Origin: Maricaulis sp.
Lineage (GTDB): Bacteria; Pseudomonadota; Alphaproteobacteria; Caulobacterales; Maricaulaceae
Length of the DNA: 38,553 nt
Assembly (NCBI GenBank): GCA_029251785.1
Contig: JAQXCQ010000027.1
Span: forward strand, 1-38,553
Reading direction: 5' to 3'
In this document: positions 1-29,652 of the stretch, one piece after another
Layout of the letters: the number at the start of each line of letters is the position of its first letter
How positions within the stretch are numbered: position 1 is the first letter of the stretch
The notes under the pieces: generated by a model
The model's database searches: none
Told to the model about the DNA's origin: nothing
Seen by the model: the letters and a program-made list of their open reading frames with translations, nothing else
Translations under genes and position numbers: made by a program

Positions 1-1
1 T

Positions 2-61
2 GAAACTTTCAAGGAAAATAGGACCATAGCCCTGGTCGAGTGGCGTCAGCTCGCCGCCTGA
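2..61 (+). pseudogene. IS6-type transposase, 3' end remnant (copy A)
   Basis: Reading from base 2 gives a 19-residue tail ending ALVEWRQLAA and a stop. The tail closely matches those of the two longer transposase relics in this window (ALTEWRQLAD ending at 3678, ALAEWQTLAA ending at 7600). That ending is typical of IS6-family DDE transposases. The rest of the gene lies outside the window or is lost, so it cannot be said whether the left neighbour is an intact element. Confidence 0.6.
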
Positions 62-169
62 ATTTGAAGACGAGCCCGACTTTCGAGCCCCGTTCGCTCT
101 GGCCTACCCACACCGCCACACATTTTCCCCAAATTCATCCTGGTTCGCGGGCGCCCCAAAGACCGCTGC

Positions 170-229
170 GAGGTCTTCAAAGAAAATAGTGCCCCAGCCC
201 TAGTGGACTAGGGCCAACTCCCCGCTTGA
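170..229 (+). pseudogene. IS6-type transposase, 3' end remnant (copy B, decayed)
   Basis: This stretch repeats the tail at 2-61, 168 bp further on, with an internal stop (EVFKENSAPALVD*GQLPA*). Similarity appears to continue past the stop, because bases 62-100 and 230-268 also resemble each other. It therefore looks like a degenerate direct duplication of an IS end. It has no coding capacity. Confidence 0.5.
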
Positions 230-295
230 ATTTGGCGAAAACCCGCGCTTTGGGGCTTCGCTTCAGTTAGCCGGAAAACATCGGCTCAAATTCAA

Positions 296-345: not shown

Positions 346-2799
346 CTATTCCGTTCCGGCTTCGGGGTCAGCCTCACCGTCTCCCATCGGGTTTTCGACC
401 GGCATGACCCAGCGGTTCAGCCAATCGATGCTTTCCGCCAGGACGTGGAGAATGCTCTCTCTTCCGCGATAGCCGTGGCTTTCATAGGGGAGCATGACCA
501 GACGGGCCGTGCCGGCATTTCCTTTGACAGCCGCGAACATGCGTTCGGACTGCATCGGATAGGTGCCGGAGTTATTGTCCATCTGGCCGTGAATCAGGAG
601 CATGGGCTCATCAATTTCATTGGCATGCATAAAGGGCGAGAGCTCGAAATAAGTTTCCGGCGCGGCCCAAAAAGTGCGACGCTCAGACTGGAAACCGAAC
701 GGTGTCAGGGTGCGATTATAGGCGCCCGATCGGGCGATTCCGGCGCGGAAGACATCCGACGCCGCCAACAAATGGGCGGTCATGAAGGCGCCATAGGAGT
801 GCCCGGCAATCGCCAGACGTTCGCCGTCGCCAAAACCCATCTCCACAGTTACATCACGCGCGGCTTCCGCCGACAGAACAAGCTGGTCGATGAAGGTGTC
901 ATTCACGGTCAACGGGTCATCGCCAACGATGGGCATGGTGGCATTTTCTAGCAGTGCATAGCCCTGCGTGACCAGAAAACGCGGGCTGGTTCCGCTGACG
1001 CGCGTGAACTCGTAGGGCGAGCCCGAAACCTGGCCGGCTGTCGAAGCGTCGTTGTATTCCAGCGGATACCCCCAGACGAGAACGGGTAGTGTGTCGCCCT
1101 CCTCATAATCTGCGGGCAGGTAGAGTGTTGCGGAGAGCGGCACGCCATCCTCGCGCTCATAGGTGATCAGTTGGCGACTGATTTCATTGAGTTGTGGGTG
1201 TGGGTTGGCGAATTGAGTGATCTGGGCGGTCTCCTCCCCGGCCCGGTGCCAGCGCACATTCGGCGGCGTGACCGGGTCTTCCCAGCGGGTCAGGAAGGAC
1301 CCGCCATCAGAGGATGTCAGACCGATGACTTCCTCGTAATTCTCGCCGCTATTGCGCCAGATCTCCGTGGTCTCGAAAGTTTCGAAACTCACCCGGTTGA
1401 GGAAGGGACGTTCACCGTCCGGCGTTGCACCATCACCGGCCATAAACAAATAGCCATCATGGACCCCAATAACGCTCTGACCGAGTTCGTTGCGAACGGT
1501 CAGGGCGCTACCCGGATTGGCATAACTGTCCTGGTAATTGCGCTCTTCGGCGAGGCGCGGCTCTACCGAAGGATCGGCAAAATCAACCAACCAGCGACGG
1601 ATGACTCGGGTATCTCGGTCATATTCCAGGGCAAAGCCAAATTGGCCTTCAGTGGTGAATTGCGTGCCGTAATAGCGGTCTTCTGTACGCAAGATTTCGA
1701 CAGGCTCGCCATCGAACGGGGCTGAAAGGGCCCAAGCGCTGTCGCGCTGATCGGTCTCGACCCGCGGATCGCCGCCGTCCAGCGCTTCTGCCCAGATGAT
1801 GCGAGCGGCGTGACTAGCCTGCCAATTGACGGATCGGCGACCTGTCACAACGCCGCCGATCGGCACATTGTCGGCCAGTGGCTGGCTGGCAATTGTCGCA
1901 ATCTCGTCGCCATTCAGATCAGTGACAAACATCCGATCCGGAAAGCTGTACCAGGGCACTTGGAAAGAGAAGGGCTGTTCCATTTCGCCAATCAGGATGT
2001 AATCCCCCCCCGGCGCAGGCTCGGCGGAATAATACAGGCCCGGCTCGCCGACCTCGCGTATGCGGGTGCGGCCAGAGGTGTTGACCAAGGCCAGTTGGGT
2101 CGAGGACAACCAGGCAAACAATGCGGCATCGTGCTCGTCGGCCAGCAAATCCTGATAGGTGCGGACCGGAGCCTCATAACCGCTGGCCTCCTGGGTCACT
2201 GGGCCCGACGGTACACGGGCGCGCTCCGGCATCGGGCCACGATCACCATCCACCAGGCTGACCAATAGGCGTTCGCCATCGGGCATCCACTCAATTGGAG
2301 AGAAGACGGCGTTGATACCGCTGTCGACAAGCTCGCGGGCCCGGGCGCGGTCAACATCCACAACCCACAGGCTGAGTTGGTCATCGCGGGTCATCACGAA
2401 GGCGATTTGCGATCCGTCCGGCGACCAGCTGGTATAGGAAATGCCCGCATCAGCAGGCAATCGAACCTCACGCTCCTCGCCACTTTCCAGGTCCACTACC
2501 GACAGACCCACGACCGAGCGCGGTCCATGGCGGCCGTTCAACGTCGCGTCCAGACGCAGCCCCGCAAGACGCTCCATGGGCCGCGCCAGCTCGGCAACCG
2601 GTGGCAAGGCCTCGCGATGCATCAACAGAAGCGTGTCGCGGGACGGCGATAACGATGTCCAGGGCGAGGGCGCGGCATCGACAATATCGATAATCTCCTG
2701 CGGTGGCAGGCGATAGGCATCCTGGGCTGCGACCGGCGCCACCAACAGGCCCGACGCTGTCATCAGCCCAAACCCGCATTTCATCATCGATTTCAACAT
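346..2799 (-). CDS. Secreted S9 family peptidase (prolyl oligopeptidase / glutamyl endopeptidase-like)
   Basis: An 817-residue serine peptidase. The N-terminus has a signal peptide (MLKSMMKCGF..., hydrophobic core, cleavage after VAAQ), so it acts in the periplasm or outside the cell. Residues ~40-560 would form the beta-propeller and ~570-800 the alpha/beta-hydrolase domain. The likely catalytic triad is Ser668 in GHSYGA, Asp741 in GQMDNNSG and His775 in ESHGYR. The block around SGAYNRTLTPFGFQ resembles the glutamyl-endopeptidase-like branch of S9 (chloroplast CGEP relatives); that subfamily call is inference. The start at 2799 is chosen because AAGGAG lies 6 bases upstream and it begins the signal peptide; the frame stays open to 2979 but that extension is basic and unlike a signal sequence. 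It stands alone, flanked by IS6-type relics. Confidence 0.88.
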   Translation of the reverse strand: MLKSMMKCGFGLMTASGLLVAPVAAQDAYRLPPQEIIDIVDAAPSPWTSLSPSRDTLLLMHREALPPVAELARPMERLAGLRLDATLNGRHGPRSVVGLSVVDLESGEEREVRLPADAGISYTSWSPDGSQIAFVMTRDDQLSLWVVDVDRARARELVDSGINAVFSPIEWMPDGERLLVSLVDGDRGPMPERARVPSGPVTQEASGYEAPVRTYQDLLADEHDAALFAWLSSTQLALVNTSGRTRIREVGEPGLYYSAEPAPGGDYILIGEMEQPFSFQVPWYSFPDRMFVTDLNGDEIATIASQPLADNVPIGGVVTGRRSVNWQASHAARIIWAEALDGGDPRVETDQRDSAWALSAPFDGEPVEILRTEDRYYGTQFTTEGQFGFALEYDRDTRVIRRWLVDFADPSVEPRLAEERNYQDSYANPGSALTVRNELGQSVIGVHDGYLFMAGDGATPDGERPFLNRVSFETFETTEIWRNSGENYEEVIGLTSSDGGSFLTRWEDPVTPPNVRWHRAGEETAQITQFANPHPQLNEISRQLITYEREDGVPLSATLYLPADYEEGDTLPVLVWGYPLEYNDASTAGQVSGSPYEFTRVSGTSPRFLVTQGYALLENATMPIVGDDPLTVNDTFIDQLVLSAEAARDVTVEMGFGDGERLAIAGHSYGAFMTAHLLAASDVFRAGIARSGAYNRTLTPFGFQSERRTFWAAPETYFELSPFMHANEIDEPMLLIHGQMDNNSGTYPMQSERMFAAVKGNAGTARLVMLPYESHGYRGRESILHVLAESIDWLNRWVMPVENPMGDGEADPEAGTE

Positions 2800-3062
2800 G
2801 CCGTACTCCTTGGGAAACAAATTTCCGTGGATGATAGGGAGCTCAGCCAGCACTTTGTCTAAAATTTTTGTAATGTGACTGTGCATCTCGCGTCGATGCC
2901 GTTTGAGACGAATGCGCCTCGGCCTGCCCACACCGCCACTCAAACCCGTCCCATTTTCCTGTTCGCCAAGCCACGCCACATAGCGCTGTGTTTCCAGGCG
3001 TTAGTGGTTTGGGATGCGCGTAGCGACGGTGGGGGCACCGGAAAATCAGCACATTTGGGCGA
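2800..3062. other. Intergenic region upstream of the S9 peptidase
   Basis: No convincing gene is seen. The ribosome-binding site and presumably the promoter of the minus-strand peptidase lie at the left end. Bases ~2915-2955 resemble ~101-130 (both carry CCCACACCGCCAC followed by a CATTTTCC-like run), which may be IS-flank debris. The transposase relic starts at about 3063. Confidence 0.4.
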
Positions 3063-3678
3063 GTGTCCTAGTGCGGTGTATCTTTCCGCTTTCATAGTGA
3101 AATGCCGAGGACCTGTTTCTTGATCGCGCAGTCTACATCACCGATGAAACGGTGCGTTTCTGGTGGAATCGGTTCGGCCCGATGTTCGCGGCGCAGATCC
3201 GCAAGAGGCGCGTGCGGAACCATAATTACTCAAACTGAGCGTGGCATCTCGACAAGGTCTTCGTCAGAATCAACGGTGAGCTCCGCTATCTCTGGCGTGC
3301 CGTTAATCACGAGGGCGAGGTGCTCGAGGGCCATGCCACCAGATGCCGGGATCGTAAGGCGTCGTGACCGACCGACTGCGGTCCTATCGGGTGGCGATGC
3401 ACGTGGTCGGCAATGCCGGCCGACATAAGACCGGCCGCTGGCTCAACCATCGGGCCGAAAACTCGCACCTGCCGTTCCGGCGAAAGGTGCACGCGATGGG
3501 CAAATTTCGTAGTTTCGAAACGCTCCAGAAATTCGTCTCAACCCACTCATCGGCCCAGTCATCGGCCCAGTCATCGGCCCACAATCAAGCCAGCCAAGAG
3601 CGTCAACTAAACCGCCGCGAGATAATCAAGAAGAACCGGTGCGCCGCTTTGACCGAATGGCGTCAGCTGGCGGACTGA
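3063..3678 (+). pseudogene. IS6-type DDE transposase, decayed
   Basis: A transposase can be followed through the three frames despite several stops. Readable blocks are FPLS**NAEDL, then ETVRFWWNRFGPMF, a stop near 3238, AWHLDKVFVRINGE (first catalytic Asp), another stop near 3361, MTDRLRSYRVAM (second Asp) and GRWLNHRAENSHL (catalytic Glu), ending ALTEWRQLAD. About 15-20 codons between the first and second Asp blocks appear deleted. The last 104 codons (3364-3678) remain open but cannot make a working enzyme. The order of the DDE blocks and the HETVRFWWNRFG-like sequence point to IS6 (IS26/IS240-like). A 12-bp triplication sits near the 3' end. Confidence 0.8.
3547..3581 (+). repeat. Three tandem copies of a 12-bp unit in the transposase relic
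   Basis: TCATCGGCCCAG occurs twice in full and a third time minus its last base. In the transposase frame it encodes Ser-Ser-Ala-Gln repeated. The related relic ending at 7600 has only one equivalent unit (QSSTYNQ), so this is a local slippage expansion in a dead gene. Confidence 0.75.
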
Positions 3679-3997
3679 GTGAAGGATTACCATCGATTTG
3701 AGAGACCTGTTCGCTTTTGTCCGACACCCCACAAAGGCGCTTACGGGAAACACATCAGACGCTGAAACACGTCGCTTGCATCATCAAAGGCAGGCTGCAT
3801 AATCAAACTCACAACGAACCAGCGCCTCCAAAGACTCATTCGCTCACATGTCCCATTTTGTCTTACGACGGACACCGGGCGGAGACGTCGGCGATTATTG
3901 CCAAGCACGCTGTTCGCAAGGGCACAGTGGGTAATCGGATGCGGCTGACGAGGGCTCATATGACAGACAAGATAACCTTACTCGTTGGAGAGCCCTC
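3679..3997. other. Intergenic region upstream of the DUF2256 gene
   Basis: It holds the left inverted-repeat copy (3756-3876) and, after it, about 120 bp unique to this side. The frame open through 3717-4001 has no family resemblance and crosses the repeat, so I do not call it a gene. The promoter of the photolyase-like operon should lie here. Confidence 0.5.
3756..3876 (+). repeat. Left copy of the ~122-bp inverted repeat upstream of the photolyase operons
   Basis: This 121-bp stretch matches the reverse complement of 7099-7221 at roughly four in five bases (aligned by eye, two one-base gaps). A 26-bp core (3781-3806 against 7170-7195) is identical. Both copies read in the same direction relative to the operon they precede. 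This copy ends 121 bp before the DUF2256 start codon. It could be a shared promoter/operator or an old mobile-element end; see the findings. Confidence 0.85.
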
Positions 3998-4135
3998 ATG
4001 AAGATGAGACGTAAAGCAGACTTGCCTAGCAAGACCTGTATGACCTGCGGCCGTCCATTCGTGTGGCGCAAGAAATGGGCGAAGGTTTGGGACGAGGTTA
4101 GATATTGCTCAGAACGATGCCGGCGGGCATCATGA
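3998..4135 (+). CDS. DUF2256 family small zinc-ribbon protein
   Basis: A 45-residue basic protein. It starts MKMRRKADLP and has cysteines at 14 and 17 (CMTC) and at 37 and 41 (YCSERC), with FVWRKKWAKVW between them. The spacing suggests a small zinc ribbon. The pattern matches DUF2256, a family often found beside photolyase/cryptochrome genes; its function is unknown. GGAG lies 7 bases before the ATG. The stop overlaps the start of the next gene in ATGA (4132-4135), so the two are almost certainly translationally coupled. A role in DNA contact or in maturing the photolyase partner is only a guess. Confidence 0.85.
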   Translation: MKMRRKADLPSKTCMTCGRPFVWRKKWAKVWDEVRYCSERCRRAS

Positions 4136-5337
4136 ATACACAAGATATGTTTCCAGGATTTGAGCCGCAGCCTGAAGTCGTCGCGTTCACGCCGACACGA
4201 CAGGCGGGCTTGGCGCGGCTGGAGAAATTTGTGTCGCGGGCGGGGCGGCATTACGCCCGTCGACGCAACTATGATTTAGGTTCTATGCAGCGCGGCAATG
4301 TTTCGGCGCTGTCGCCTTGGATACGCCATCGACTGATTACTGAGCAAGAAGTGCTAAACTCCACATGTTCGCATCATTCGATGTTAGCGGCCGAGAAGTT
4401 CGTCCAAGAGGTGTTTTGGCGAACCTATTTCAAGGGCTGGCTGGAACAACACCCCAGCGTATGGGTCGCGTATCAGGACGGGCTAGCGCGCGCGTTGGAT
4501 GCGGACGCGCGATCATCTGATTACCAAGACGCGATGGCCGGTCGTACTGGGATCGCGTGTTTTGATCATTGGGTTCAGGAATTGGTGCAATCCGGGTATC
4601 TGCATAATCATGTGCGGATGTGGTTCGCCTCCATTTGGATTTTCACGCTGCGTTTGCCCTGGCAGTTGGGTGCCGATTTTTTCTTGCGCCATTTAATTGA
4701 CGGGGATCCGGCGTCCAACACGCTTAGCTGGCGTTGGGTCGGCGGGTTGCACACAAAGGGTAAAACTTATTTGGCCCGCCCGGACAATATCGCGAAATAT
4801 ACTGATGGGCGGTTCCACCCCGTGGGGCAGCTTGCGACAGTGGCAGAGCCATTGATGGAGCAGGTTGCGCATCCTCTCGTTCAACTACCTGCGACAGACC
4901 CAACTCCCAAGGAGGAGTGTCTGCTGTTCATTACAGAAGAGGATTGCCAGGTCGAGACGCTACTACCGCATACCCCTATGGCTCGTTTGGGTCTGCTGGC
5001 AAAGCAATCCTTGGGTGTCAGTGCGATTGCGCAGAATTTTTCTAAAAGTGCGGTTGAGGCAACTAGTGGGACGTTGATCGACGTTACCACCCCGTGGCGC
5101 GATCAGATTATCGAAGCCGCTATGGCTGCCGGAACGAACACGGTGGTGACGGGATATGCGCCGGTGGGTCCTGTCGCCGATCAACTGGCGGCGCTGAATT
5201 TGCCCGAGGCCGGGATTACGCTGCACCATATCAGGCGTGATTACGACACGCTGGCTTGGCCTCATGCGACCAAGGGGTTCTTTGGACTCAAAAAGAAAAT
5301 CCCGCATATTCTGCGCGAGTTGGGTTTTGCGGTGTAG
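4132..5337 (+). CDS. Photolyase/cryptochrome-like FAD-binding protein with unusual domain order
   Basis: A 401-residue protein. Residues ~27-245 match the helical FAD-binding half of the photolyase/cryptochrome family: SALSPWIRHRLIT near 58-70, HNHVRMWFASIW at 159-170, and DGDPASNTLSWRWVGG at 190-205. There is no N-terminal alpha/beta antenna domain before it. Instead, residues ~262-395 form an alpha/beta-looking segment (CLLFITEEDC, NTVVTGYAPVGPVADQL, WPHATKGFFGLKKKIP) after the FAD domain. The start at 4132 is chosen for the ATGA overlap with the DUF2256 stop; an in-frame codon at 4105 lies inside that gene. It faces the PhrB/CryB-type gene tail to tail, with 6 bases between the stops. Light-dependent repair or blue-light sensing is likely, but the substrate cannot be told. 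Confidence 0.8.
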   Translation: MNTQDMFPGFEPQPEVVAFTPTRQAGLARLEKFVSRAGRHYARRRNYDLGSMQRGNVSALSPWIRHRLITEQEVLNSTCSHHSMLAAEKFVQEVFWRTYFKGWLEQHPSVWVAYQDGLARALDADARSSDYQDAMAGRTGIACFDHWVQELVQSGYLHNHVRMWFASIWIFTLRLPWQLGADFFLRHLIDGDPASNTLSWRWVGGLHTKGKTYLARPDNIAKYTDGRFHPVGQLATVAEPLMEQVAHPLVQLPATDPTPKEECLLFITEEDCQVETLLPHTPMARLGLLAKQSLGVSAIAQNFSKSAVEATSGTLIDVTTPWRDQIIEAAMAAGTNTVVTGYAPVGPVADQLAALNLPEAGITLHHIRRDYDTLAWPHATKGFFGLKKKIPHILRELGFAV

Positions 5338-5343
5338 GCAACG

Positions 5344-5559
5344 CTACTTGTAAGTTTCACGCCGATCCGAAAATTTTCGCACGCGTTCGCGCCATGTGCG
5401 GTAGCTGCCGATTTTTAGTTCCCGACGCATTAAAGATTGAACATCTTTTTCGCCAATCCCGTACTCAATGCGGATGCTGGCAAAGCTCACATGGTCGCTA
5501 AGTGCCATTTGAACAATGTCGCTTATCTGAGCCTCAGTGAAGGTCTTGGTTTTCTTCAT
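5344..5559 (-). CDS. TIGR03643 / DUF2805-like small protein
   Basis: A 71-residue basic protein beginning MKKTKTFTEAQISDIVQMAL, with a central IRIEYGIGEKDVQSLMRRELK and SYRTWRERV near the end. This matches the small TIGR03643 (DUF2805) family, usually encoded next to photolyases. The predicted fold is helical, possibly helix-turn-helix-like around residues 24-45. Its ATG overlaps the photolyase stop in ATGA (5556-5559), so it is the second gene of a two-gene minus-strand operon. Function unknown; a regulatory or accessory role with the photolyase is inference. Confidence 0.8.
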   Translation of the reverse strand: MKKTKTFTEAQISDIVQMALSDHVSFASIRIEYGIGEKDVQSLMRRELKIGSYRTWRERVRKFSDRRETYK

Positions 5560-7079
5560 TTTATGCCAATCTCCTTGAGAAAGCGCTGTGCGTCATTGGC
5601 AATGGCCTCACGCTTCTCATTGCTCATCCGAGCCAGGGTTTTATACATAAAGCCCATGCGAGGATTGCTATGCAACATTTCAGCGTTGCGATCGATAAAG
5701 TCCCAATAGAGATAGTTGAAAGGGCACGCCTTTGGGCCATTTTTGACGGACACTTTATAGCTGCAGCTGTCGCAATAATTCGACATTTTTTTGATATACG
5801 CGCCGCTGGCAGCATAAGGTTTCGAGGCTAAAACGCCGCCATCCGCGAACAGGACCATGCCGCTGACATTGGGCAATTCGACCCATTCGTACGCATCCGC
5901 ATAGACCAGCATGTACCATTCGTTCACTTCATCGGGGGCCAATCCCGCAATCAATGCAAAATTGCCAAGCACCATCAAGCGCTGGATATGATGGGCATAG
6001 GCGTTTTGTTTGGTCTCCAGCACACATTGGCGGACACAGTTCATTTGCGTCTCGCCGGTCCAAAAGAAGTCCGGCAAGGGCCGAGATGCGCCGAGTGCAT
6101 TCGTCGACTTATACTCGGGCATTTTCAGCCAGTAGATGCCACGGACAAATTCGCGCCAGCCCAGTATTTGCCGAATGAAGCCCTCAACCGCATTCAACGG
6201 GGCGAGGCCCGCATGATAAGCCGCCTCCGTTCGTGTGATGCATTCCAGAGGGGTGAGCAATCCACAGTTCAGGTAGAGCCCGATATGACTATGATACAGC
6301 CACGGCTCACCCTGAACCATCGCATCCTGGTAATCGCCAAATAGTGCGAGTCGCTCTGTCATGAATTGATCCAGCGCCTGTAACGCGCCTTCGCGGGTAA
6401 CGGCAAAATGGAATGGATCAAGATCCCCGAAATGATCCGGAAACTCGCGTGCCACCAAGTGCGTCACCTCGGTAACCACAGCATCCACCGGGGCTTTGTA
6501 CGTGTCAGGCACGTTCAGAGTTTTGGGTGGCGGCTTTCGGTTATCCGCATCGAAATTCCATTGCCCTCCAATGGGATCTGGCCCGTCCATCAACACGCGA
6601 TACTTGCGGCGCATCTCGCGATAGAAGAATTCCATGCGAAATTGCTTTCGGCCCTCGGCCCAGGCAGCAAATTCAGCGGGCGTTGATAAAAACCGATCGT
6701 CTTCTCGCAGATCAACGTCGACATTTAAAAGGCGGGCCCAGGTTTCGAACTCAGCCAGCAATCTAAATTCACCGGGCTTGGTCAGAACAATGTCAGAGAT
6801 GTCATGCTGCTGGATCTGCGCCGCAACCTCCCCCATCAGGGAGCCAGTGTTCTTCGGATCGTCGTAGGTGACATAGTGGACGCGCAAACCCTGATCGCGC
6901 AATGTCTTCGCAAAGTGCCGCATGGCGCTAAACACAAACACGATCTTCTTTTTGTGATGTTTAACGTAAGTCGCCTCTTGATTGACCTCGCACATCAAGA
7001 TGAGATCATCGTGGGTGGCGTCTGAAAGAGATGCGAGCGTTGTGCTGAGTTGATCGCCAAGAACGAGCCTGAGCTTCAT
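5556..7079 (-). CDS. phrB: Fe-S cluster photolyase of the PhrB/CryB type, probably (6-4) photolyase
   Basis: A 507-residue member of the FeS-BCP branch of photolyases. It opens with KLRLVLGDQLS, typical of this branch, carries an N-terminal alpha/beta domain (~1-130), and a helical FAD domain. Four cysteines fit a [4Fe-4S] site: Cys348, Cys436, Cys439 and Cys452, spaced as in Agrobacterium PhrB (350, 438, 441, 454 as I recall). NEWYMLVYADAYEWVELPNVSGM and YCDSC/ACPFNYLYW are strong family blocks. Known members repair (6-4) photoproducts with blue light; an alternative is a CryB-like sensor. The upstream region carries the right copy of the inverted repeat, ending 19 bases before the ATG. A weak TAAGG lies about a dozen bases upstream. 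Confidence 0.92.
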   Translation of the reverse strand: MKLRLVLGDQLSTTLASLSDATHDDLILMCEVNQEATYVKHHKKKIVFVFSAMRHFAKTLRDQGLRVHYVTYDDPKNTGSLMGEVAAQIQQHDISDIVLTKPGEFRLLAEFETWARLLNVDVDLREDDRFLSTPAEFAAWAEGRKQFRMEFFYREMRRKYRVLMDGPDPIGGQWNFDADNRKPPPKTLNVPDTYKAPVDAVVTEVTHLVAREFPDHFGDLDPFHFAVTREGALQALDQFMTERLALFGDYQDAMVQGEPWLYHSHIGLYLNCGLLTPLECITRTEAAYHAGLAPLNAVEGFIRQILGWREFVRGIYWLKMPEYKSTNALGASRPLPDFFWTGETQMNCVRQCVLETKQNAYAHHIQRLMVLGNFALIAGLAPDEVNEWYMLVYADAYEWVELPNVSGMVLFADGGVLASKPYAASGAYIKKMSNYCDSCSYKVSVKNGPKACPFNYLYWDFIDRNAEMLHSNPRMGFMYKTLARMSNEKREAIANDAQRFLKEIGIK

Positions 7080-7098
7080 GGCTTTTATCGCCTTACAA

Positions 7099-7221
7099 GG
7101 TTGTCCGCCGTCGGATAAAATAGAACATGTGAGCGTCTTAGTTATTGGAGGCTCTGGTTCGTTGAGGGGTTGATTATGCAGCCTGCCTTTGATGAAGCAA
7201 GCGGCGCGGTTTCATCGTCGG
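7099..7221 (-). repeat. Right copy of the ~122-bp inverted repeat, upstream of phrB
   Basis: The reverse complement of this 123-bp stretch matches 3756-3876 (about 80% by eye). The identical 26-bp core is at 7170-7195. It lies immediately upstream of the phrB start, so the promoter must be inside or very close to it. The IS6-type relic begins about 35 bp beyond its outer end. Confidence 0.85.
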
Positions 7222-7254
7222 CCGGGATGAACAACCCATTCTGATATTTCACGA

Positions 7255-7600
7255 TGTCACCTGAGATTATCCGCCTGACTGTGATGCTGTTTGTCCATTT
7301 CCCGTTTTCGCTGCGCAATATCGAGGACCTGCTCCACGAGCGCGGTATCGATATCGCGCACGAGACGGTGCGTTTTTTGGTGGAACCGGTTCGGGTCGAT
7401 GTTTGCGAGCACCTTGCAAGGACGACTGATTCAGGCGTGAAATCGGTGAGCTTCGTATTTTCCAGACCCTACAAAAGTTCGCTTCAGTCCAGTCATCCAC
7501 ATACAATCAATTCAACCACCAACGCCATTTAAGCCACCAAGAAATAGTCAAGAAAACCCGAGCCAAAGCTTTGGCCGAATGGCAAACGCTTGCCGCCTAA
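7255..7600 (+). pseudogene. IS6-type transposase, decayed and internally deleted
   Basis: The N-terminal part reads MSPEIIRLTVMLFVHFPFSL and continues to HETVRF. There a single extra T near 7378 shifts the frame (ETVRFL instead of ETVRFWWNRFGSMF). The DDE catalytic core is absent. The sequence resumes at FRTLQKFASVQSSTYNQFN and ends KALAEWQTLAA. Roughly 120 codons are missing compared with a full-length family member. It lies 22 bases from the end of the export operon. Confidence 0.8.
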
Positions 7601-7622
7601 TTCGGGCGACCACCGCCTACTA

Positions 7623-8849
7623 TCAGCGCGCGACCGAGTTTCTTGCCGTGACGGCCGTGTTGTCGGTGATGGCTGACGAGGGGAAGAGGACGACGCTGTC
7701 GCCCTCTTCCAACCCGCTCAGAATATGGGCCTGCAAGCCATTATTGCGATCGATTTCGACCCGGACAGAACGCGCGCGGCCATTGCGGACGGCATAAACG
7801 GACCAGTGCTCACCGACCCTGAACAAGGCGCTGGATGGCACGACGAGCGCGTCTTCCTGTTCCCAGATAATGATGCGCGTCACGACCCGATATCCGTGAC
7901 CCAGGCTGGCTGGGCGATCTGCCGGGTCGGCAAACCGGATCATGGTATTAACCCGCTGCTCCTCGACACCGAGCGCCGAGAACTTCGTGAATGCCCACGG
8001 ATCGACGCGATCCACGATGCCCTCAATATCGTAAGCCCCGCCCCAGTCAGCGATCAAAACCCGCTGACCCGGAGAAACTTGTACAGCGTCCGTGGAGAGC
8101 AATTCCACCACCACTTCGAGATCGCTTTCCACATTGCCTATTTCCAGTATGGGGGAACCCGCAGGCAAGGTAGTTTCGCTTTGTTGTATCAACCGCAAAA
8201 CCCGCCCGGATGCTGGAGCGCGGATCGGTATATCTTCCAGGATCTGGATTTCAGCACTCGGGCTGCCATCCATTCCACTCAGCATGCTTTGTGCATTTGC
8301 CAATTCAGCTTCGCGTACTGAAACCGCCGCATCCGCAGAATCAAGTGCCGCGCTGGCGGATCGGGACTGACGGACGAACCGATCCAGTGCCGCCTGACTG
8401 GAGATCCCATTGTCTCGGAGATAAATTTGCCGCTCCAGCTCAGAATCAGCCAATTCCTGATCTGCCACAGCGCGATTGCGTTCGGCCTGGGCGAGCCGAA
8501 GCGCCGCCTCGGACGCGCTGACATTGGTTCTCGCTTGCTCGCGTGTGCGGACGTCGAGCACAGCCGGATTGGACGGTGCCATGTAGGCGACAATATCTTC
8601 GCCGCGCTCGACAGGGTCGCCTGGCTCAACATCAACACGGCGCAAGCGACCGGCTACGGGCGTCGAAACGACATAGGCATCGTGCACGCGAGTGCGGCCG
8701 TCTTCGTTGACGGTATCCATCATTGGCTGTGTGACGACGATGCCGATATCGACCGGAACTGGTCGTGGCCAGAATGCGTAGGCCAGGGCAAGCACCAACA
8801 AGGTAGCCGCAAAAGCAACAAATACGGAGCGTGAATAGGTCTTGAACAT
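7623..8849 (-). CDS. HlyD/MacA-type periplasmic adaptor of an ABC exporter
   Basis: A 408-residue membrane-fusion protein. A single N-terminal membrane anchor lies at ~7-27. It is followed by a biotinyl-lipoyl-like half (VSTPVAGRLRRVDVEPGDPV, 61-80), an alpha-helical coiled coil (~100-187), the second lipoyl half (APASGRVLRLIQQ) and beta-barrel segments. It would bridge the inner-membrane permease to an outer-membrane channel, not encoded here. The start at 8849 (MFKTYSRS) is chosen because an AAGGGA lies upstream and it puts the anchor at the N-terminus; a 19-residue in-frame extension would overlap the permease gene. It is the last gene of a DevBCA/MacAB-like operon, 7 bases after the permease stop. 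Confidence 0.87.
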   Translation of the reverse strand: MFKTYSRSVFVAFAATLLVLALAYAFWPRPVPVDIGIVVTQPMMDTVNEDGRTRVHDAYVVSTPVAGRLRRVDVEPGDPVERGEDIVAYMAPSNPAVLDVRTREQARTNVSASEAALRLAQAERNRAVADQELADSELERQIYLRDNGISSQAALDRFVRQSRSASAALDSADAAVSVREAELANAQSMLSGMDGSPSAEIQILEDIPIRAPASGRVLRLIQQSETTLPAGSPILEIGNVESDLEVVVELLSTDAVQVSPGQRVLIADWGGAYDIEGIVDRVDPWAFTKFSALGVEEQRVNTMIRFADPADRPASLGHGYRVVTRIIIWEQEDALVVPSSALFRVGEHWSVYAVRNGRARSVRVEIDRNNGLQAHILSGLEEGDSVVLFPSSAITDNTAVTARNSVAR

Positions 8850-8856
8850 CTGCCCA

Positions 8857-11223
8857 TTATTCCCTTGATTTGAGCGCCGAGACCAAATCCGCTCGGTCGC
8901 TGTCACGTTTCACCATCCACCCGGAAAAAATCGCCGCCGCCAGGACCGCGAGTCCGGCCACGCCGAGGCTGCCGGGCGAGAATACGGCGGGTATTTGATA
9001 TAAATCGGTACTGAAACCCTCAGCAATCGCATAGCTGAGGCCATAGCCAAGCACGGCACCAATCGGTAGGGCGATCAGGATGATTATGCCCAATTCACCG
9101 AGCAGAACAAACGCCGCTTCGCCCTTGCTGAAGCCAATCACTCTGAGACTTGCCAGATCGTGCGCACTTTCGGCGTAGGCAATTCGCGCCGTATTATAGA
9201 CAATGCCAAAGGTAATCAGCGCCGCGATTGCCGCCATAACGAAACGCATCGCTCCGGCTCCCTGATCCATGATGACTTGAAAGGCTTCGCGCGCGTCCTG
9301 CTTGACGGATACTCCGGCGACAACAGGCATTGCGTCCAGCGCAGCGTAAATTTCATCGCGATAAGCCGGGTCTATCCTGAGATAAGCACCGGTCACCCGG
9401 TTTGTTTCTCCAAGCGCCTGGTTGAGCTCGGCCAATTCCATATAGGCCGGTGAGCCCAAAAGTGATTCCGCAATTCCGGTGACGACAAGATCGAGCTGAG
9501 GCCTGCGCCCCTGGCGCACATCAATCTGGAGAGTCTCGCCAATTTGAATGCTCAGTATGTCGGCGAGTGCTGGCGTCAAAATTATGCCCTCACCCCGCAG
9601 CGTCAATGTCTGGCCATTTGAATCCACGGCCCGAAATAGCCGCGCATCTGGCGGAACGCCGTAAATTCCGCCGCGATAGGTATGGTTTCCATTGCGCAGA
9701 AAGGCCGCCACGGTCCTGGAGGCTTCAACCTCGATCACGCCCTCCAGATTGGAGAGCGCGTGCAATGAGCGGTCCGACAAGGCGTCGATATAACTGACCG
9801 AAATATCACTGCGATCAATCACACTAAACGTCGTATCCACCGTCTCATCAAAACCGGCGAGTACAGACAGCATGCCTGCTGATAGTGCCATGCCAGCCGA
9901 GACACCGGCGATCGCCCCGATCGAGCGACCAGGGTGGCGAATAATTCGCCGTATCACCATGCGCGAAGGTTGATCCAAAATTTTGGTGATAAATGCGCTG
10001 ATCCGATTCATGCCGCGATAATCCGGCGGCGTTGGTGGCCGCATGGCGACGGCTGGCGTGAGGGAGAAAATTTGCCGCAATGCGAACAATCCACCAAAGG
10101 CGGCAGCCCCCACACTGGCTGACACCGCAATAAGGAAGGAGGCCGGATCAATCTCGAAAACGAGGAAGGGAAATTTGTAGTACTGGACATAGACGCCAAT
10201 CAATCCAGCTCCAGCGGCGAGGCCCAGAAGGCATCCCAGGAATGCGCCGCCGACAGCAATTGCCAGAATCAATTTGAAGTAATGGCCGGTCACCTCCGCA
10301 TTGGTGTATCCGAATGCCTTGATCAACCCGATTTGCTGGCGTTCGGCCTGCAGCAGTCGCGTAATTACGATGTTGAGCAGGAAAGCTGCAACGGCAAGAA
10401 ATATTGGGGGCACGCCGGCGCTCGAAGCCCGCAAACCGGAAATTTCCTCTGATATGAAGCGATCGGAAAACTGATCTTCCAGACCGTAAGCGCCGACCGC
10501 TCCATAATCATCCAGCAATCGATCAACGGCGTCCAATACCGCGGGCAAGTCGGATTCGTTTCCGATATCGAGCAAGGCTTCGTTGAAGGCGCCGTCCAGA
10601 TCATAGGCCGCCCCCATGGCGCTCCGACTCATCCAGATGACGCCAAAGCGGGAATCATCGGGAACCAGTTCGCCGGGCGCAGTTGTGTAGAGAAATTCAG
10701 GGGCCTGGGCGATGCCGACAATAACAAACGACCGCCGTGCCCCATGCATGGTCGCCGACAACCTATCGCCGGGCTCAAGCCCGTGAGCATTGGCAAAACT
10801 ATTCAGAAGGAGAATTTCATCGGTACGTCGGCGATCTATCCACCGACCAGCGGATAGATAAACAGCATTGAGTCGCGGTTCGCCAAAGTCCGGAAGCGAC
10901 ACGGCGCGCGCTTGAACCGGCAGTTCGCTGCCTGGCATCTCAATCAGGGCACCGCCGGCAATTCGCCCCTCAACCGCCGAGACGCCATTAATCGCCGCCA
11001 ATTGTGCCAGAACTCGATCCGGCGCACGAACAACCGGGGCAAATACGTCTGACATACGGTAGCGCTCATAATAGGCGCGCCGGGTTTCTTCTAGCGATTC
11101 CACCAGTCCAGACATCATCACCAGTAGCATCACGCCGACAGCGACAACCAGCCCAATGGCCAGACCCTGCGTGCGCATGCGCCAAAGGTCTCGCAGTAGT
11201 TTTCGATCCAGCGGACTCACCAC
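8857..11223 (-). CDS. FtsX-like ABC transporter permease (DevC/MacB-type)
   Basis: A 788-residue inner-membrane permease with a duplicated FtsX architecture. Membrane segments lie near 21-41, 272-292, 316-343, 362-383, 434-454, 660-680, 709-735 and 752-772. Two large periplasmic domains lie at ~42-270 and ~455-658. [17 protein letters not shown] and [15 protein letters not shown] are the two cytoplasmic coupling-helix motifs of FtsX permeases. The start codon is GTG, with GGAG 5 bases upstream; an adjacent GTG at 11220 would give a GTGA overlap with the ATPase stop and is equally possible. It couples to the ATPase upstream and the adaptor downstream. Substrate unknown; glycolipid, lipid or antibiotic export is typical of such sets. 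Confidence 0.9.
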
Positions 11224-11939
11224 TTGATCTCCGAGGGCTCAAGTTTTTCGCCATTTCGGATGACTTGGCGGATCGCTCCGTCGGAAAAATGAATGACCCG
11301 ATCTGCCATTTGAGCCGTTGAAGACGCGTGCGTAACGATGAGAACCGTCGCGCCCAATTTTTCATTCACGGTTTTGAGAGCTGTGAGCACCGTTCGCCCA
11401 GTTTCGGAATCGAGCGCACCGGTAGGTTCATCGCAGAAAAGTACCGTCGGGTTTTTCGCTATCGCGCGGGCAATCGCGACGCGTTGCTGTTCGCCTCCGG
11501 AGAGTTCTGATGGAAAGTGATTTGCCCGATTTGTCAGGCCAACCATCGCCAGCGCCTCGCCCGGCGTCATGGGATCATTTGCGACCTCGGTGACGAGCTC
11601 GACATTTTCCCGTGCCGTCAAGCTGGGCATTAAATTGTAGAACTGGAAAACGAACCCGACATGATCGCGCCGATAGCGCGTCAATTGCCGGTCACTCATC
11701 GACGTCAATTTCTGATCCTGAAACCAGGCATCGCCGTCGCTTGCCCGGTCCAGACCACCGATTATGTTCAACAGCGTGGATTTCCCGCTGCCTGATGGAC
11801 CGAGCAGGACGACAAATTCACCTTCCGGAATATCCAGATCAACACCGCGTAGGGCGTGAACCGCTGCGTCTCCGCTTCCATAGATCTTTGTTAATCCACG
11901 AGTTTTGAAAGCATTTTCAATCACAGGGCGCGTTTCCAT
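11217..11939 (-). CDS. ABC transporter ATP-binding protein (LolD/MacB/DevA-like)
   Basis: A 240-residue nucleotide-binding subunit with all key motifs: Walker A GPSGSGKS at 47-54, Q-loop Gln99, signature LSGGEQQR at 146-153, Walker B VLFCDEP at 166-172, and switch His204 in IVTHAS. It is the first gene of the minus-strand export operon and overlaps the permease start. I chose the ATG at 11939; an in-frame TTG two codons upstream is less likely. No clear Shine-Dalgarno precedes it, so the transcript may be leaderless or nearly so. It energises export of an unknown substrate by the FtsX-like permease. Confidence 0.92.
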
Positions 11940-12155
11940 GCACAATCAACTACAGGCGTGCGGCCGGGGCCGGCGGTTACTTTATGACATATAAAGCGGG
12001 ATTGCTCGCTGCTACATTGCATCGCGAGCGCCCTCACCTAAGGCCATACACTCACGATGCCGTAAATGATGCGGTTATCCGGCTCATCGGATCCCATTGC
12101 TCTGACAAGGAAAAGCTCTTAGAATTAGTCCTTTAGGACTGGAGATTGGACGCAG
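11940..12155. promoter_or_regulatory. Divergent intergenic region between the exporter and the nnrD operon
   Basis: These 216 bp must carry the promoters of both the minus-strand ABC operon and the plus-strand nnrD-like operon. A TATAAA-like box lies near 11990. A small perfect hairpin, AGTCC/GGACT (12127-12140), lies in the 5' leader of the plus-strand gene. No FNR-type or other operator that I recognise is present. Confidence 0.35.
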
Positions 12156-22956: not shown

Positions 22957-23067
22957 TTGGGGCGTGTCGGATCGCAGCCGAATCCCACGATTTCTCCACG
23001 CGGCTTGACCTCTGACGTATGGCGAATGGGACTTGCCAGCGACGGGCAAATGCGGCTTCTGTGCTAA

Positions 23068-23085
23068 ATTGACAACGACGGACAG
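23068..23085 (+). promoter_or_regulatory. Operator-like site in front of the LacI-type gene
   Basis: ATTGACAACGACGGACAG differs at only four of 18 positions from the sequence duplicated in front of the TonB-dependent receptor (24158-24198). It lies 10 bases before the regulator ATG, where a bound repressor would block initiation. It fits autoregulation but is unproven. Confidence 0.4.
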
Positions 23086-23095
23086 GGCACAAACG

Positions 23096-24118
23096 ATGGC
23101 CAACATTTTCGACGTGGCAAAGAAGGCCGGCGTTTCGATAAAGACCGTGTCCCGTGTCCTCAACAACGCTCCCAATGTGCGACAGGCGACACAGGACAAG
23201 GTCAGAGCGTCGATGATGGCTCTGGACTACCAACCCAGCAATGCCGCTCGAGAATTACGGAGCGGTCGATCGAAATCCATTGGAATCTTGCTGGGCGATC
23301 CCAGTTCCGGCTTCCAGGCTCGTCTGCATCATGCGGCGCTACAAGCGTGCAGTGACGCCGGCTTTTTCCTGACAGTCGGCCTGTTTGATGAATCGGCCGA
23401 TGATTGGGCGGGGCAGCTGGATGATTTTTTATCTCGGTCGCGAGTTGAGAATATGATCTTGGTTCCGCCACTGTGTGACTCTGAAGTCCTGCATGCCCAT
23501 ATGCGTGACCGAGGCATTTCATTTGGACTAATCTCGCCCTCCCGCCCAGTGCCGGATGCTTATTCAATTGGCATGGACGAACAGCAGGCCGCCTTTGATA
23601 TCACGATGCACCTCATTCGGATGGGACATCGGCAAATTGGCCATATTACCGGCCCGACCGGACACGTTGCGACCGGCTTGCGCCTCGCTGGCTATCAAGC
23701 CGCTCTCGCTGAATCTGGCATTCAACCCAATCCTGATTGGGTTAGGCCTGGTAAGTTCCACTTCCGGGATGCACAAATTTGCGCCGAGCGTATGCTGGCT
23801 AACCGCGAGGAAAGACCGACCGCAATTTTTGCAGCCAATGACGAAATGGCGGCAGCTGTCTGCTTTACAGCCAATAGTCTGGGGCTCGATGTGCCGCGCG
23901 ATTTGTCGGTTGTTGGCTTCGATGATGTCGCCATTGCCACCACTATCTGGCCCCCTTTAACGACTGTCGCGCAGCCGTTTAATGCAATGGCTGATGCGGC
24001 AATACGCTTGCTTGTAAACCGTCCTTCCGAGACCAGGTCGCCTCCAGATTCCAGCATTCTACAGCTGGAGTATCAACTCAAAATTCGAAGTTCCGCAGCG
24101 CCACCGATCCATCAGTGA
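23096..24118 (+). CDS. LacI family transcriptional regulator of the glucan/Entner-Doudoroff locus
   Basis: A 341-residue protein starting MANIFDVAKKAGVSIKTVSR, the LacI helix-turn-helix (residues 3-24), with the hinge near 45-60 and a periplasmic-binding-like effector domain (SIGILLGDPSSGFQ, TAIFAANDEMAAAV, LSVVGFDDVAIATTIWPPLTTVAQP). ATG at 23096 is chosen because it starts the helix-turn-helix; the frame stays open 21 codons further upstream. It is transcribed towards the TonB-dependent receptor, 140 bases away. It probably represses the downstream locus until a sugar inducer binds. Which sugar (glucose, a glucan oligomer or a phosphorylated intermediate) cannot be told from sequence. Confidence 0.9.
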   Translation: MANIFDVAKKAGVSIKTVSRVLNNAPNVRQATQDKVRASMMALDYQPSNAARELRSGRSKSIGILLGDPSSGFQARLHHAALQACSDAGFFLTVGLFDESADDWAGQLDDFLSRSRVENMILVPPLCDSEVLHAHMRDRGISFGLISPSRPVPDAYSIGMDEQQAAFDITMHLIRMGHRQIGHITGPTGHVATGLRLAGYQAALAESGIQPNPDWVRPGKFHFRDAQICAERMLANREERPTAIFAANDEMAAAVCFTANSLGLDVPRDLSVVGFDDVAIATTIWPPLTTVAQPFNAMADAAIRLLVNRPSETRSPPDSSILQLEYQLKIRSSAAPPIHQ

Positions 24119-24157
24119 CCCTTTGCCTATAATGAAATCAAGAATTTGACACACAAA

Positions 24158-24198
24158 TGACAAGGTTGGACATTTTCAATTGACAAGGTTGGACATTT
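24158..24198 (+). promoter_or_regulatory. Duplicated 18-bp operator-like sequence before the receptor gene
   Basis: TGACAAGGTTGGACATTT occurs at 24158-24175 and identically at 24181-24198, a 23-bp period (about two helical turns). Each copy with its flank is an imperfect palindrome (AATG.CAA at one end, TTG..CATT at the other), as expected of LacI-family sites. A related site lies before the LacI-type gene. They end 61 bases before the receptor start. Confidence 0.6.
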
Positions 24199-24209
24199 GT
24201 TGCTCCATA
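24180..24209 (+). promoter_or_regulatory. Possible sigma-70-like promoter of the receptor operon
   Basis: TTGACA (24180-24185) is followed after 18 bases by CCATAA (24204-24209). The -35 overlaps the second operator-like repeat, so repressor binding would exclude RNA polymerase. The -10 match is weak. Confidence 0.3.
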
Positions 24210-24258
24210 AGCGGGAGGGGCGAAATATCGCCATACATGTAATTGGGGAGAATTTGCA

Positions 24259-27108
24259 ATGCGCCAGCTTAAGCTGAAAAATCGGGCTTTGAATTCAGCA
24301 TCGAAACTCGTCTGGGCTTCATTGCTCGCCATGCCACTCGCACTGGCACCAGCCACCCACGCGCAGGACACGCGCGACGAGGCGGATGCAGAAGCATCGC
24401 AACAATCCTCTACGTCTGTACCTGACGTGATCGTGGTGACTGTTGAGCGCCGTGAAACGTCACTCCAGGACCTGGCGGGCACAGCGACCGCTTTTAGTGG
24501 AGAGGATATGCGTATGCTGGGTCTGCAGAATTTCGCAGACCTCAACGGGCGCTATCCCGGCCTACAGGTTGGCAATAATCAGGGTAATATCGAAGTCTTT
24601 ATTCGCGGCGTCGGTTCCACCAACAATACAGAACTGGGTGAGCCGGCAGCAGCGACGCATATGGACGGGATCTATATTCCGCGCCCCAGCGGATTTGGTT
24701 CGGCCTTCTTTGATATCCAGCGCGTAGAAGTGAATGTCGGTCCGCAAGGCACGTTACGCGGTCGAAATGCTACCGCCGGTTCTGTGAATGTTATTCCATG
24801 GGGCCCGGGCTTGGGCATCTTTGATGCCTCTGCGGAAGTTGGTATCGGCAATTTTGGTGAATACTCCTTCGAGGGTGTCGTCAATGTCCCGGTCACGCAG
24901 AATTCAGCCTTCCGTCTCGCGGCTTACCGCATGGAACACGATTCCTATTACACCAATATGTCGCCCACGAGTGCCGAACTGGGCGTTAGCGTTCCAACCG
25001 CAGAATCCGAAGGCATTGGTGTTGCCGAAGCTGCGGAAAATTTTGGCATTCGCGGCAGCTATCTCATCGAACCAAATAGCCAGTGGCGCGTAACGCTAAC
25101 CGCGGATTGGCTGTCGGAAGGCGGTTCCGGTTATACGGGAACCAATTACGCCAATCCGTTGGGCAATGGTGTGACGCCCGATCAGATTTCCGACCCACGC
25201 CGCGTCATTGGTCGCGCGATGACGCCTGAGCTCGACACGGATCATTGGGGCTTGCGGGCGCATGTCGAATATGAGGGTGATTGGTTTAATTTTGAATACA
25301 TCGGTGGCTACCGTGATCTCGTCTATGACTACATGGCTGCCACACCGCTTTCGCCCTATTACCCAGGCGTTATCGACACACTTCGCAACCCGTCTAACGG
25401 AAACCTCGACGAAGCGTTCGACAATTTCTCCCTGTTCCAATCAGTCACAGATTCTGAAACGCAAGTTCACGAAATCCGTTTCTTCAACGAAACCGATGCG
25501 GGCCTGATCTGGAATGTCGGCGCGTTCCTGTTTGAGGAAGACCAGCGTACATTCCTGGGCGCGACAGGAGACCGGGGCTTATTCTTCTCGGGCCTTGAGT
25601 TTAACCAGCGAACCAATACCGAAGCGTGGGCGGCCTATGCGGACGCCACCTTCCCCGTCAACGATCGCTTCCGGGTTACCGGTGGCCTGCGCTATTCCAG
25701 CGAAGAAAAACGACGTCGTGGCGTGAATGCTCGCTATGGCTTCGCAATTGGCGGCTCGGGCTTCTCCTGCTGCGGCGGCGTTCGGGTGGGTACAGAAGGG
25801 TTCCAATTTAACGTATTTGACCGAACAATTTTCAATCCTGATACGGATGGCGATGGCCTGACCAGCGATCAGGAAGTGCTTGATTTCTACTTTGACGGCG
25901 TCGCCAATTTCGGTGCACGCGACAATGTTGACGACATCTTTGCCAACGGCATCATCCCCGGTGGTGCTGTTGCCGGCCCGCCTTGTGTAGACACCATCGC
26001 CGGTGACTTTTGGGCTTGCCCAAGCACAACGGACGGCATCCCTTGGGATGACTTCGTAGCGGGCCGCTACTCCTTTGCTGTCCCGTTCCAGGGACAAATT
26101 GCCCCTCAGAACGGCTTTGCCGAATTCAACTTTGTCGATTGGCGTTTACGGGCAGAATATGATCTCACCGAAGACAATCTGCTCTACGCCTCTGCCAGCA
26201 GTGGCCACAATGGCGGCGGATTCAACGACAACTTGCCATCGGTAACGGGCATCACGATCGATGTTGGCGGCGGCGGAAGCTCACCGTATGACACCTCGGA
26301 ACTTGCTCCGACATTCAATGAGGAAAGCGTCATTGTCTACGAAATCGGCTCGAAGAACGAATTCGAGACACAATACGGACGAGCGCATTTCAACGTTTCT
26401 GCTTTCTATTACGATTACAGCGACATCATCCAGAATGTCTTGCTTTCTGTTGGCCAAATCCTCGACGGTGAAGGCCTAGATACGACCGGCGCGCAGCCGA
26501 ATGAACTCGGCCTCGTGGTCAATTTCAATTTTAACGCATCGGATGCCGAAATCTTTGGTGCCCAATTCGAAGCCGGATTTGACCTGCCAGCCAATTTGCG
26601 CTGGGACGGCACGCTCCTGTGGATGCCGGAAGCCCGAATTCAGAACTCGGAATTGATCGCGGATTCTCGCTTCCAGGCCGATGTGGCACCCGCGCAAGCC
26701 ATTCCACAATCTATCGACGGTTTCCGACTGCGCCGAACGCCGGAAATTAGCATTCAAACATCGCTCAGCCAGCGCCTTAGCTTCGATCAGGGTGACGCGG
26801 ATTGGATCGTCTCTCTTGGTTATCGGACCGAACAACATCAGGATATTTTCAATGGTGTGATTTACCCGGAGTTTGACAACACAACCGACAACGCTCTGCG
26901 CCTGAATGATCTGGTCGAAGGATATATGACGGTGGATGCCGGCGCCGGATTCAACCCGGGTGGCAATGATAACTTGAGGTTTGAAGCCTATGTTCAGAAT
27001 CTGACGGATGAACAACGCGAGCAGGCGATCATCATCACTCAATTCGATAATACCCGGTTCTTCAGTCGCCCGCGCACCTATGGTGTTCGTTTCCGGTGGC
27101 GCCGCTAG
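24259..27108 (+). CDS. TonB-dependent receptor (probable beta-glucan oligosaccharide uptake)
   Basis: A 949-residue outer-membrane receptor with a signal peptide ending THAQ (~36). A TonB-box-like segment VIVVTVERRE lies near 56-65. The plug domain follows (~65-190, with VFIRGVGS and VEVNVGPQGTLRGRNATAGSVNV), then a 22-strand-type barrel ending YGVRFRWRR. An insertion near 525-540 reads NPDTDGDGLTSDQE, a calcium-binding loop as in thrombospondin type-3 repeats, probably in an extracellular loop. Neighbouring GH16 and GH3 genes point to beta-1,3-glucan fragments as the ligand; that is inference. It heads the long operon and is preceded by the duplicated operator-like sequence. The ribosome-binding site is GGGGAG. 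Confidence 0.93.
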   Translation: MRQLKLKNRALNSASKLVWASLLAMPLALAPATHAQDTRDEADAEASQQSSTSVPDVIVVTVERRETSLQDLAGTATAFSGEDMRMLGLQNFADLNGRYPGLQVGNNQGNIEVFIRGVGSTNNTELGEPAAATHMDGIYIPRPSGFGSAFFDIQRVEVNVGPQGTLRGRNATAGSVNVIPWGPGLGIFDASAEVGIGNFGEYSFEGVVNVPVTQNSAFRLAAYRMEHDSYYTNMSPTSAELGVSVPTAESEGIGVAEAAENFGIRGSYLIEPNSQWRVTLTADWLSEGGSGYTGTNYANPLGNGVTPDQISDPRRVIGRAMTPELDTDHWGLRAHVEYEGDWFNFEYIGGYRDLVYDYMAATPLSPYYPGVIDTLRNPSNGNLDEAFDNFSLFQSVTDSETQVHEIRFFNETDAGLIWNVGAFLFEEDQRTFLGATGDRGLFFSGLEFNQRTNTEAWAAYADATFPVNDRFRVTGGLRYSSEEKRRRGVNARYGFAIGGSGFSCCGGVRVGTEGFQFNVFDRTIFNPDTDGDGLTSDQEVLDFYFDGVANFGARDNVDDIFANGIIPGGAVAGPPCVDTIAGDFWACPSTTDGIPWDDFVAGRYSFAVPFQGQIAPQNGFAEFNFVDWRLRAEYDLTEDNLLYASASSGHNGGGFNDNLPSVTGITIDVGGGGSSPYDTSELAPTFNEESVIVYEIGSKNEFETQYGRAHFNVSAFYYDYSDIIQNVLLSVGQILDGEGLDTTGAQPNELGLVVNFNFNASDAEIFGAQFEAGFDLPANLRWDGTLLWMPEARIQNSELIADSRFQADVAPAQAIPQSIDGFRLRRTPEISIQTSLSQRLSFDQGDADWIVSLGYRTEQHQDIFNGVIYPEFDNTTDNALRLNDLVEGYMTVDAGAGFNPGGNDNLRFEAYVQNLTDEQREQAIIITQFDNTRFFSRPRTYGVRFRWRR

Positions 27109-27156
27109 GCTAGAGCCAGAGTCTGAGCCATTATCCGAGCCTGCGGGAGAGGATCT

Positions 27157-28131: not shown

Positions 28132-28158
28132 ACTCAACTTCTCAGGAAGGTAAGCGGT

Positions 28159-29619: not shown

Positions 29620-29652
29620 TGCATCCAATCCTACACATGCGAGGCCCCTCAG

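Follow-up and report, generated by a model that had tools for sequence, protein, structure and literature searches.

The window analysed here is a stretch of 38,553 nucleotides from Maricaulis sp., an alphaproteobacterium of the order Caulobacterales (contig JAQXCQ010000027.1). It carries a four-gene photolyase cluster bracketed by two inverted copies of a repeat of about 122 bp, called here copy A and copy B, each of which lies next to a remnant of another mobile element. The features of the locus are given below; C152 and C176 denote places elsewhere in the same genome where the repeat recurs, and IS stands for insertion sequence.

3083..3732, forward strand: decayed remnant of an IS6-family (DDE_Tnp_IS240) transposase, its right end abutting copy A (PF13610 on 3364-3678, E 1.8e-11; IS6 DNA matches from the same genome reaching 3728; alignment)
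3733..3874, forward strand: copy A, right end of an IS3-family element, with C-terminal transposase codons, stop codon, trailer and right terminal repeat (BLAST from 3752; local alignment to the C176 copy from 3733; 107/123 identical to C152)
3998..4135, forward strand: DUF2256 protein of 45 amino acids (PF10013, E 4.5e-23; no NCBIfam match)
4132..5337, forward strand: photolyase/cryptochrome-like protein binding flavin adenine dinucleotide (FAD) (PF03441 FAD_binding_7, E 1.4e-22)
5344..5559, reverse strand: small DUF2805/TIGR03643-like protein (PF10985, 56.5 bits at a cut-off of 22.5; TIGR03643, 58.1 bits, below its cut-off of 66.55)
5556..7079, reverse strand: phrB, DPRP family (PF04244 DPRP, E 2.7e-83), grouping with Roseobacter sequences
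7102..7221, reverse strand: copy B, right end of an IS3-family element (BLAST 7102-7219; 107/120 identical to C152; terminal motif at 7102-7120 with 0 mismatches)
7225..7606, forward strand: decayed IS6-family remnant with its left tip missing and its interior deleted, abutting copy B (DNA matches from the same genome, most starting at 7225-7245, with later pieces to 7606; alignment)

The genes are arranged in two convergent pairs, DUF2256 with the FAD-binding protein and phrB with the TIGR03643-like gene. The DUF2256 start at 3998 is a reading of the open reading frame (ORF), supported by the PF10013 match on 3998-4135. The FAD-binding protein matches NCBIfam photolyase models far under their cut-offs. 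The DPRP family, to which the window PhrB belongs, we take to be the prokaryotic 6-4 photolyase type.

A reading of this DNA made from its sequence only had pointed out the inverted recurrence of the 122 bp before both operons, and the recurrence is real. A repeat search of the whole 38.5-kb window (minimum length 25, seed 12) listed a sole inverted pair, 3765-3874 and 7102-7211, of 110 nt and 83% identity. Alignment of the two copies, which the same reading had called for, gave 99 identical positions of 119 between 3752-3874 on the forward strand and the reverse complement of 7102-7221, with a local score of 134; the maximum among 976 random window segments was 23, which rules out chance similarity. 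The core of 26 bp at 3781-3806 and 7170-7195 is identical, with mismatches bordering it on either side, and the repeat unit has sharp ends, the tips 3874 (copy A) and 7102 (copy B). As had been claimed, both copies point in the same direction relative to transcription of the adjoining operon: the tips face inward, A towards the DUF2256 operon and B towards phrB. The claimed spacings to the start codons (3998, and 7079 on the reverse strand) also hold. Between tip 7102 and the phrB start codon lie 22 bp, and between tip 3874 and the DUF2256 start lie 123 bp of leader that is not of IS origin.

Judged by alignment, the repeat is the last 120-140 bp or so of an IS3-family element, comprising the C-terminal codons of the transposase, the stop codon, a trailer and the right terminal repeat; on the same grounds, copies A and B are what remains at the right-hand end of two IS3-family insertion sequences of a single kind. 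This identification stands on three observations: annotated transposase beneath the repeat on Hoeflea plasmids, identical complete copies of a related element in another alphaproteobacterium, and an in-frame transposase at two other places in the Maricaulis genome. In a plasmid collection of 72,556 records the repeat matched six; the two Hoeflea matches overlap an annotated IS3 family transposase, with the overlap falling on the 3' end of the transposase gene in plasmid NZ_CP011481.1 of Hoeflea sp. IMCC20628, and the other four records have no annotated feature beneath the match. The Hoeflea region (L009) holds two overlapping ORFs, orfA (2683-3057, HTH_Tnp_1) and orfB (3054-4031, rve, E 1.1e-24). 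OrfB scores 176.9 bits against NCBIfam transpos_IS3, whose cut-off is 160, and 190.6 bits against transpos_IS481, below the cut-off of 224. By eye, the left end of the Hoeflea element reads TGTCTGACGTCAG. The other alphaproteobacterium (genome G193) contains two identical 1,510-bp copies of a related element with differing flanks, which start with TGTCTGACGTCAG and end with GACGGACA; their termini are of the TG...CA type, and their right tip corresponds to window position 3874. On C152 and C176 an IS3-type transposase frame lies upstream and runs in frame into the repeat, and the ends of these transposases, over the last 69 and 111 residues, are 77% identical to that of Hoeflea. The transposase stop codon of the IS3 element falls inside the 26-bp core.

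The window copies have the same right end, transposase C-terminus and TG...CA tips as the Hoeflea and G193 elements; unlike these, they keep the last 120-142 bp only, with the body of the transposase and the left end gone. A right-end pattern typed by hand fits tip 3874 with 2 mismatches and tip 7102 with none, and a search for the terminal motif, covering the surroundings of both copies for a left terminal repeat, matched these two right tips only. The extent of copy A is firm for 3752-3874; 3733-3751 is a weaker, gapped extension from alignment to the C176 copy. The statement that no ordinary gene explains the repeat was thus wrong, for the repeat is made up of the 3' part of an IS3 transposase gene and the right terminal repeat. 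The suggestion of a terminal repeat of an old mobile cassette came close to the truth and needs one correction: A and B are each a right end, and both come from the same kind of IS3-family element.

A search of the genome with 3752-3874 found the repeat at seven places, two of them in the window and the others on contigs C152, C176, C73, C36 and C39, one apiece. About 105 bp are common to all copies, and A and B extend further into sequence common to C152 and C176. C73 and C39 (L005, L007) have in common another upstream stretch, with 103 of 134 aligned positions identical and unlike the C152/C176 type, which possibly marks another, related IS that shares the right end. Five of the seven copies thus lie outside the photolyase locus, and none of 40 related genomes carries the repeat, though 28 of the 40 have a phrB match; the repeat is not specific to photolyase-type genes. 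The sequence-only reading had named occurrence of the core at unrelated loci as a MITE (miniature inverted-repeat transposable element) as the finding that would speak against it. In substance this finding was made, since the repeat sequence recurs at five other loci, though there it is the end of an IS and no MITE. A class-wide DNA search found the repeat in at least 3 of 385 genomes, the own genome included, a lower bound since at most two candidates were scored in most of the genomes listed. An open IS3 transposase frame lies elsewhere in the genome (L216, C16:3949-4926); its identity to the Hoeflea transposase is 69% across all 326 residues, and its contig also holds several IS6-family matches.

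Could the repeat be a free-standing MITE, or a regulatory cassette merely having an end in common with IS3? In favour of this speak C73, C36 and C39, which are without this transposase frame directly upstream. The stretch common to C73 and C39, however, suggests another related IS; A and B continue past the common core into C152/C176 sequence, and the motif search found no left terminal repeat near either copy. We regard such a cassette as very improbable.

Differences from C152 amount to 16/123 for A, 13/120 for B, 12/105 for C73, 20/96 for C39 and 6/123 for C176, in a comparison where gaps were not counted, C36 was not included and C152 is itself a copy and not the ancestor. Copies A and B have drifted no less than those outside the photolyase locus. 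A recent duplication of A and B from one another finds no support, each being nearer to C152 than to the other, and the two do not appear to be an obvious recent pair.

Next to copy A, the junction between IS6 and IS3 sequence falls within 3729-3733, as IS6 homology extends to 3728 and IS3 homology begins by 3733. The right end of the IS6 element is present in this remnant according to alignment, and the arrangement looks as if an IS6 element had landed in the IS3 transposase gene, some 140 bp short of the IS3 tip. An IS6 terminal repeat was rejected as the source of the 122 bp, because the IS6 copies of this genome have other ends and the homology stops at 3728. The remnant beside copy B (7225-7606) was searched against the genome and gave 24 places, a count that takes in the query itself, separately counted pieces of a single copy and two matches to IS3 ends; ORF 7254-7532 inside it has no Pfam match. 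By eye, further decayed pieces resembling the C-terminus of an IS6-family transposase are seen at window positions 1-260, beyond a peptidase gene to the left of the cluster, so that this gene seems to be bracketed by IS6 debris.

The same peptidase gene looks native, having a near full-length match at 74-91% in 14 of 18 genomes of the same genus. For the photolyase block a foreign source is indicated. The window PhrB is 76% identical to a protein from a Sulfitobacter metagenome-assembled genome (MAG); of the 28 matches in the 40 relatives, 26 fall in the range of 52-57% identity and the remaining two at 37-38%. In a tree of 106 proteins (105 rows plus that of the window, built by a quick method with midpoint root, the two 37-38% copies being excluded and at least one locus filtered out), the window PhrB falls into a six-row set with Sulfitobacter, Loktanella, Pelagimonas, Shimia and Ascidiaceihabitans (support 95), and a fork with support of 100 divides it from 15 copies of the same genus. 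In that tree a genome of the host's family is akin to Glycocaulis (Maricaulaceae); together with the kinship of another genome, from the host's order, to Parvularcula, this suggests a host within Caulobacterales in the GTDB sense. Near full-length matches to the FAD-binding protein, at 49-51%, occur in 7 of the 40 relatives and in 1 of the 18 within the genus; weaker partial matches are commoner and, by their length, are mostly other photolyase-type proteins. In three loci (L039, L041, L107), on which the comparison of the two halves rests, the Sulfitobacter MAG row for the FAD-binding protein having been filtered out, identity of this protein falls together with that of phrB (0.62 at 0.75; 0.54-0.55 at 0.66-0.67), and a common source of the two halves is not contradicted by these values. 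At 11 loci of relatives, DNA similarity stops at or before position 2884 and never resumes in the window, though the loci continue upstream of the peptidase gene. Because PhrB groups with Roseobacter proteins and the similarity of relatives stops by 2884, the block most likely lies in foreign DNA. No close plasmid-borne donor was seen in the plasmid collection, where PhrB matches 87 records and the FAD-binding protein 149, all below 60%.

The Sulfitobacter MAG (CAJJCJ010000002.1, L036) possesses the same four genes as the window. There all four run in one direction, in the order phrB, DUF2256, FAD-binding protein and TIGR03643; in the window they are split into the two convergent pairs. L039 and L041 have the order phrB, DUF2256, FAD-binding protein. 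The convergent layout was found at none of the loci with at least two of the four genes among the best 80 of 585 relatives and the 7 FAD-protein loci, a survey in which many loci end at contig ends and FAD-protein matches below 300 query residues were dropped.

Beside copy B, at 7623-11945, lie genes for an HlyD-type protein, a large protein (8857-11223, a permease by its position) and an ABC ATPase. The large protein shows 62% identity to proteins from two genomes of a different family in the order and no more than 46% to those from the same genus, and this transporter operon may also have been acquired.

We propose that the inverted IS3 right ends bracketing the photolyase genes are, with high probability, the relic of an IS3-associated acquisition or rearrangement of a Roseobacter-type cluster. 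IS3 copies would have helped to bring in or rearrange the cluster, either as arms of a composite transposon or through two separate insertions. Later, an IS6 element would have inserted into the transposase gene of copy A, and deletions would then have removed the remainder of both IS3 copies. More tentatively, phrB, whose own leader is reduced to 22 bp, might be transcribed from or through the IS end, and the DUF2256 operon, with its 123 bp of non-IS leader, may retain its own promoter. As in an IS-flanked acquired block, inverted IS ends surround a seemingly acquired block; in contrast to a composite transposon, the outer parts are lost, and the two IS copies bracketing the cargo are represented by the truncated right ends A and B only.

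With the outer ends lost, a composite relic and two separate insertions are indistinguishable. The latter, with one IS3 copy landing upstream of each operon, each leader struck separately and the block arriving otherwise, for example together with the neighbouring transporter genes, is a serious alternative to which we give somewhat less than an even chance; it competes with the composite-transposon half of our explanation only. It agrees with the fact that A and B are no nearer to each other than to C152 or C176. Moreover, three other copies are placed just before an ORF, called mechanically, that runs away from the tip, at distances of about 10 nt (C176), 58 nt (C73) and 1-2 nt (C39). Such placement is not universal, however, as the ORF at C152 runs into the IS end and the longest ORF near C36 faces the tip, and inward-facing right ends around a four-gene block are the layout expected of composite-transposon arms, although this is not decisive.

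The sequence-only reading had also offered a duplicated light- or stress-responsive control region. This finds no positive support, with five other loci in the genome, drift no slower than elsewhere and promoter-like scores at the level of shuffled sequence; a duplicated regulatory region under selection was rejected on the latter two grounds. Its argument that at least one promoter would have to sit inside the element is reasonable for phrB, with its 22 bp of non-IS leader. A related idea, that the IS ends were kept as outward promoters co-expressing both photolyase operons, draws on the closeness of the phrB start codon to the IS tip and on a CATAAT hexamer in the 26-bp core with a weak -35 element 16-17 bp upstream. 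Precedents exist as well: reporter tests in Paracoccus, described in passages of PMC3281130, found outward promoters within the terminal regions of IS407-group IS3 elements from alphaproteobacteria, and according to passages of the review PMC9330008 the right end of IS911 bears an outward -35; they would apply here by analogy. Against this, the best match under relaxed criteria (CTTGCA or TTGCTT with CATAAT) scores at the level of shuffled sequence: 169-262 of 500 shuffles did as well as the hexamer pair in A and B. A strict sigma-70-like scan returned no outward site in either copy and 2 sites in total against a shuffle mean of 3.1; its one site touching copy B (7092-7121, forward strand) points away from phrB. 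CATAAT furthermore includes the transposase stop codon, which is a simpler reason for its conservation, and drift from C152 is no slower at the photolyase locus than elsewhere. Retention of the ends as co-expressing promoters is accordingly unlikely in our judgement, and slightly less likely still is the fuller version, in which inward-facing IS3 right ends were exapted as matched outward promoters so that an acquired cluster, split into two convergent operons, came to be co-expressed again. IS-driven or read-through transcription of phrB is plausible from the position of the tip and the IS407-group precedent; a co-ordinated light-responsive promoter pair is unlikely.

Several observations weigh against the history proposed above, an IS3-associated acquisition or rearrangement. 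The left ends of both window IS3 copies are gone, and both A (107/123) and B (107/120) match C152 better than they match each other (99/119). Directly upstream of the repeat on C73, C36 and C39 there is no transposase frame of the C152/C176 kind. The sequence scans lend no promoter role to the IS ends. IS3 elements usually produce a short target-site duplication of 3-4 bp, and the two identical G193 copies that were compared both lack a flanking direct repeat; this is a single trait, and later rearrangement can erase a target duplication.

Farther to the right, at 23033-36913, lies a sugar-use cluster encoding a LacI regulator, a TonB receptor, GH16, MFS and GH3 proteins, then glucose-6-phosphate dehydrogenase, a phosphogluconolactonase-type protein, an Edd/IlvD-type dehydratase and glucokinase. 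It reads like a locus for the use of beta-glucan (laminarin-type) that would feed the Entner-Doudoroff path.

The original observation was correct and its cause would be an ordinary one, decayed IS3-family right ends beside decayed IS6 elements. The repeat looks like debris left by the acquisition of the genes and not like a switch dedicated to light control. A false lead, the common light-responsive control element, is thereby removed and a concrete history takes its place: a Roseobacter-type photolyase cluster amid IS3 and IS6 debris, hosted by an alphaproteobacterium outside the Roseobacter group. If it is true that the IS end drives phrB, this would be one more natural case of repair-gene expression supplied by an insertion sequence.

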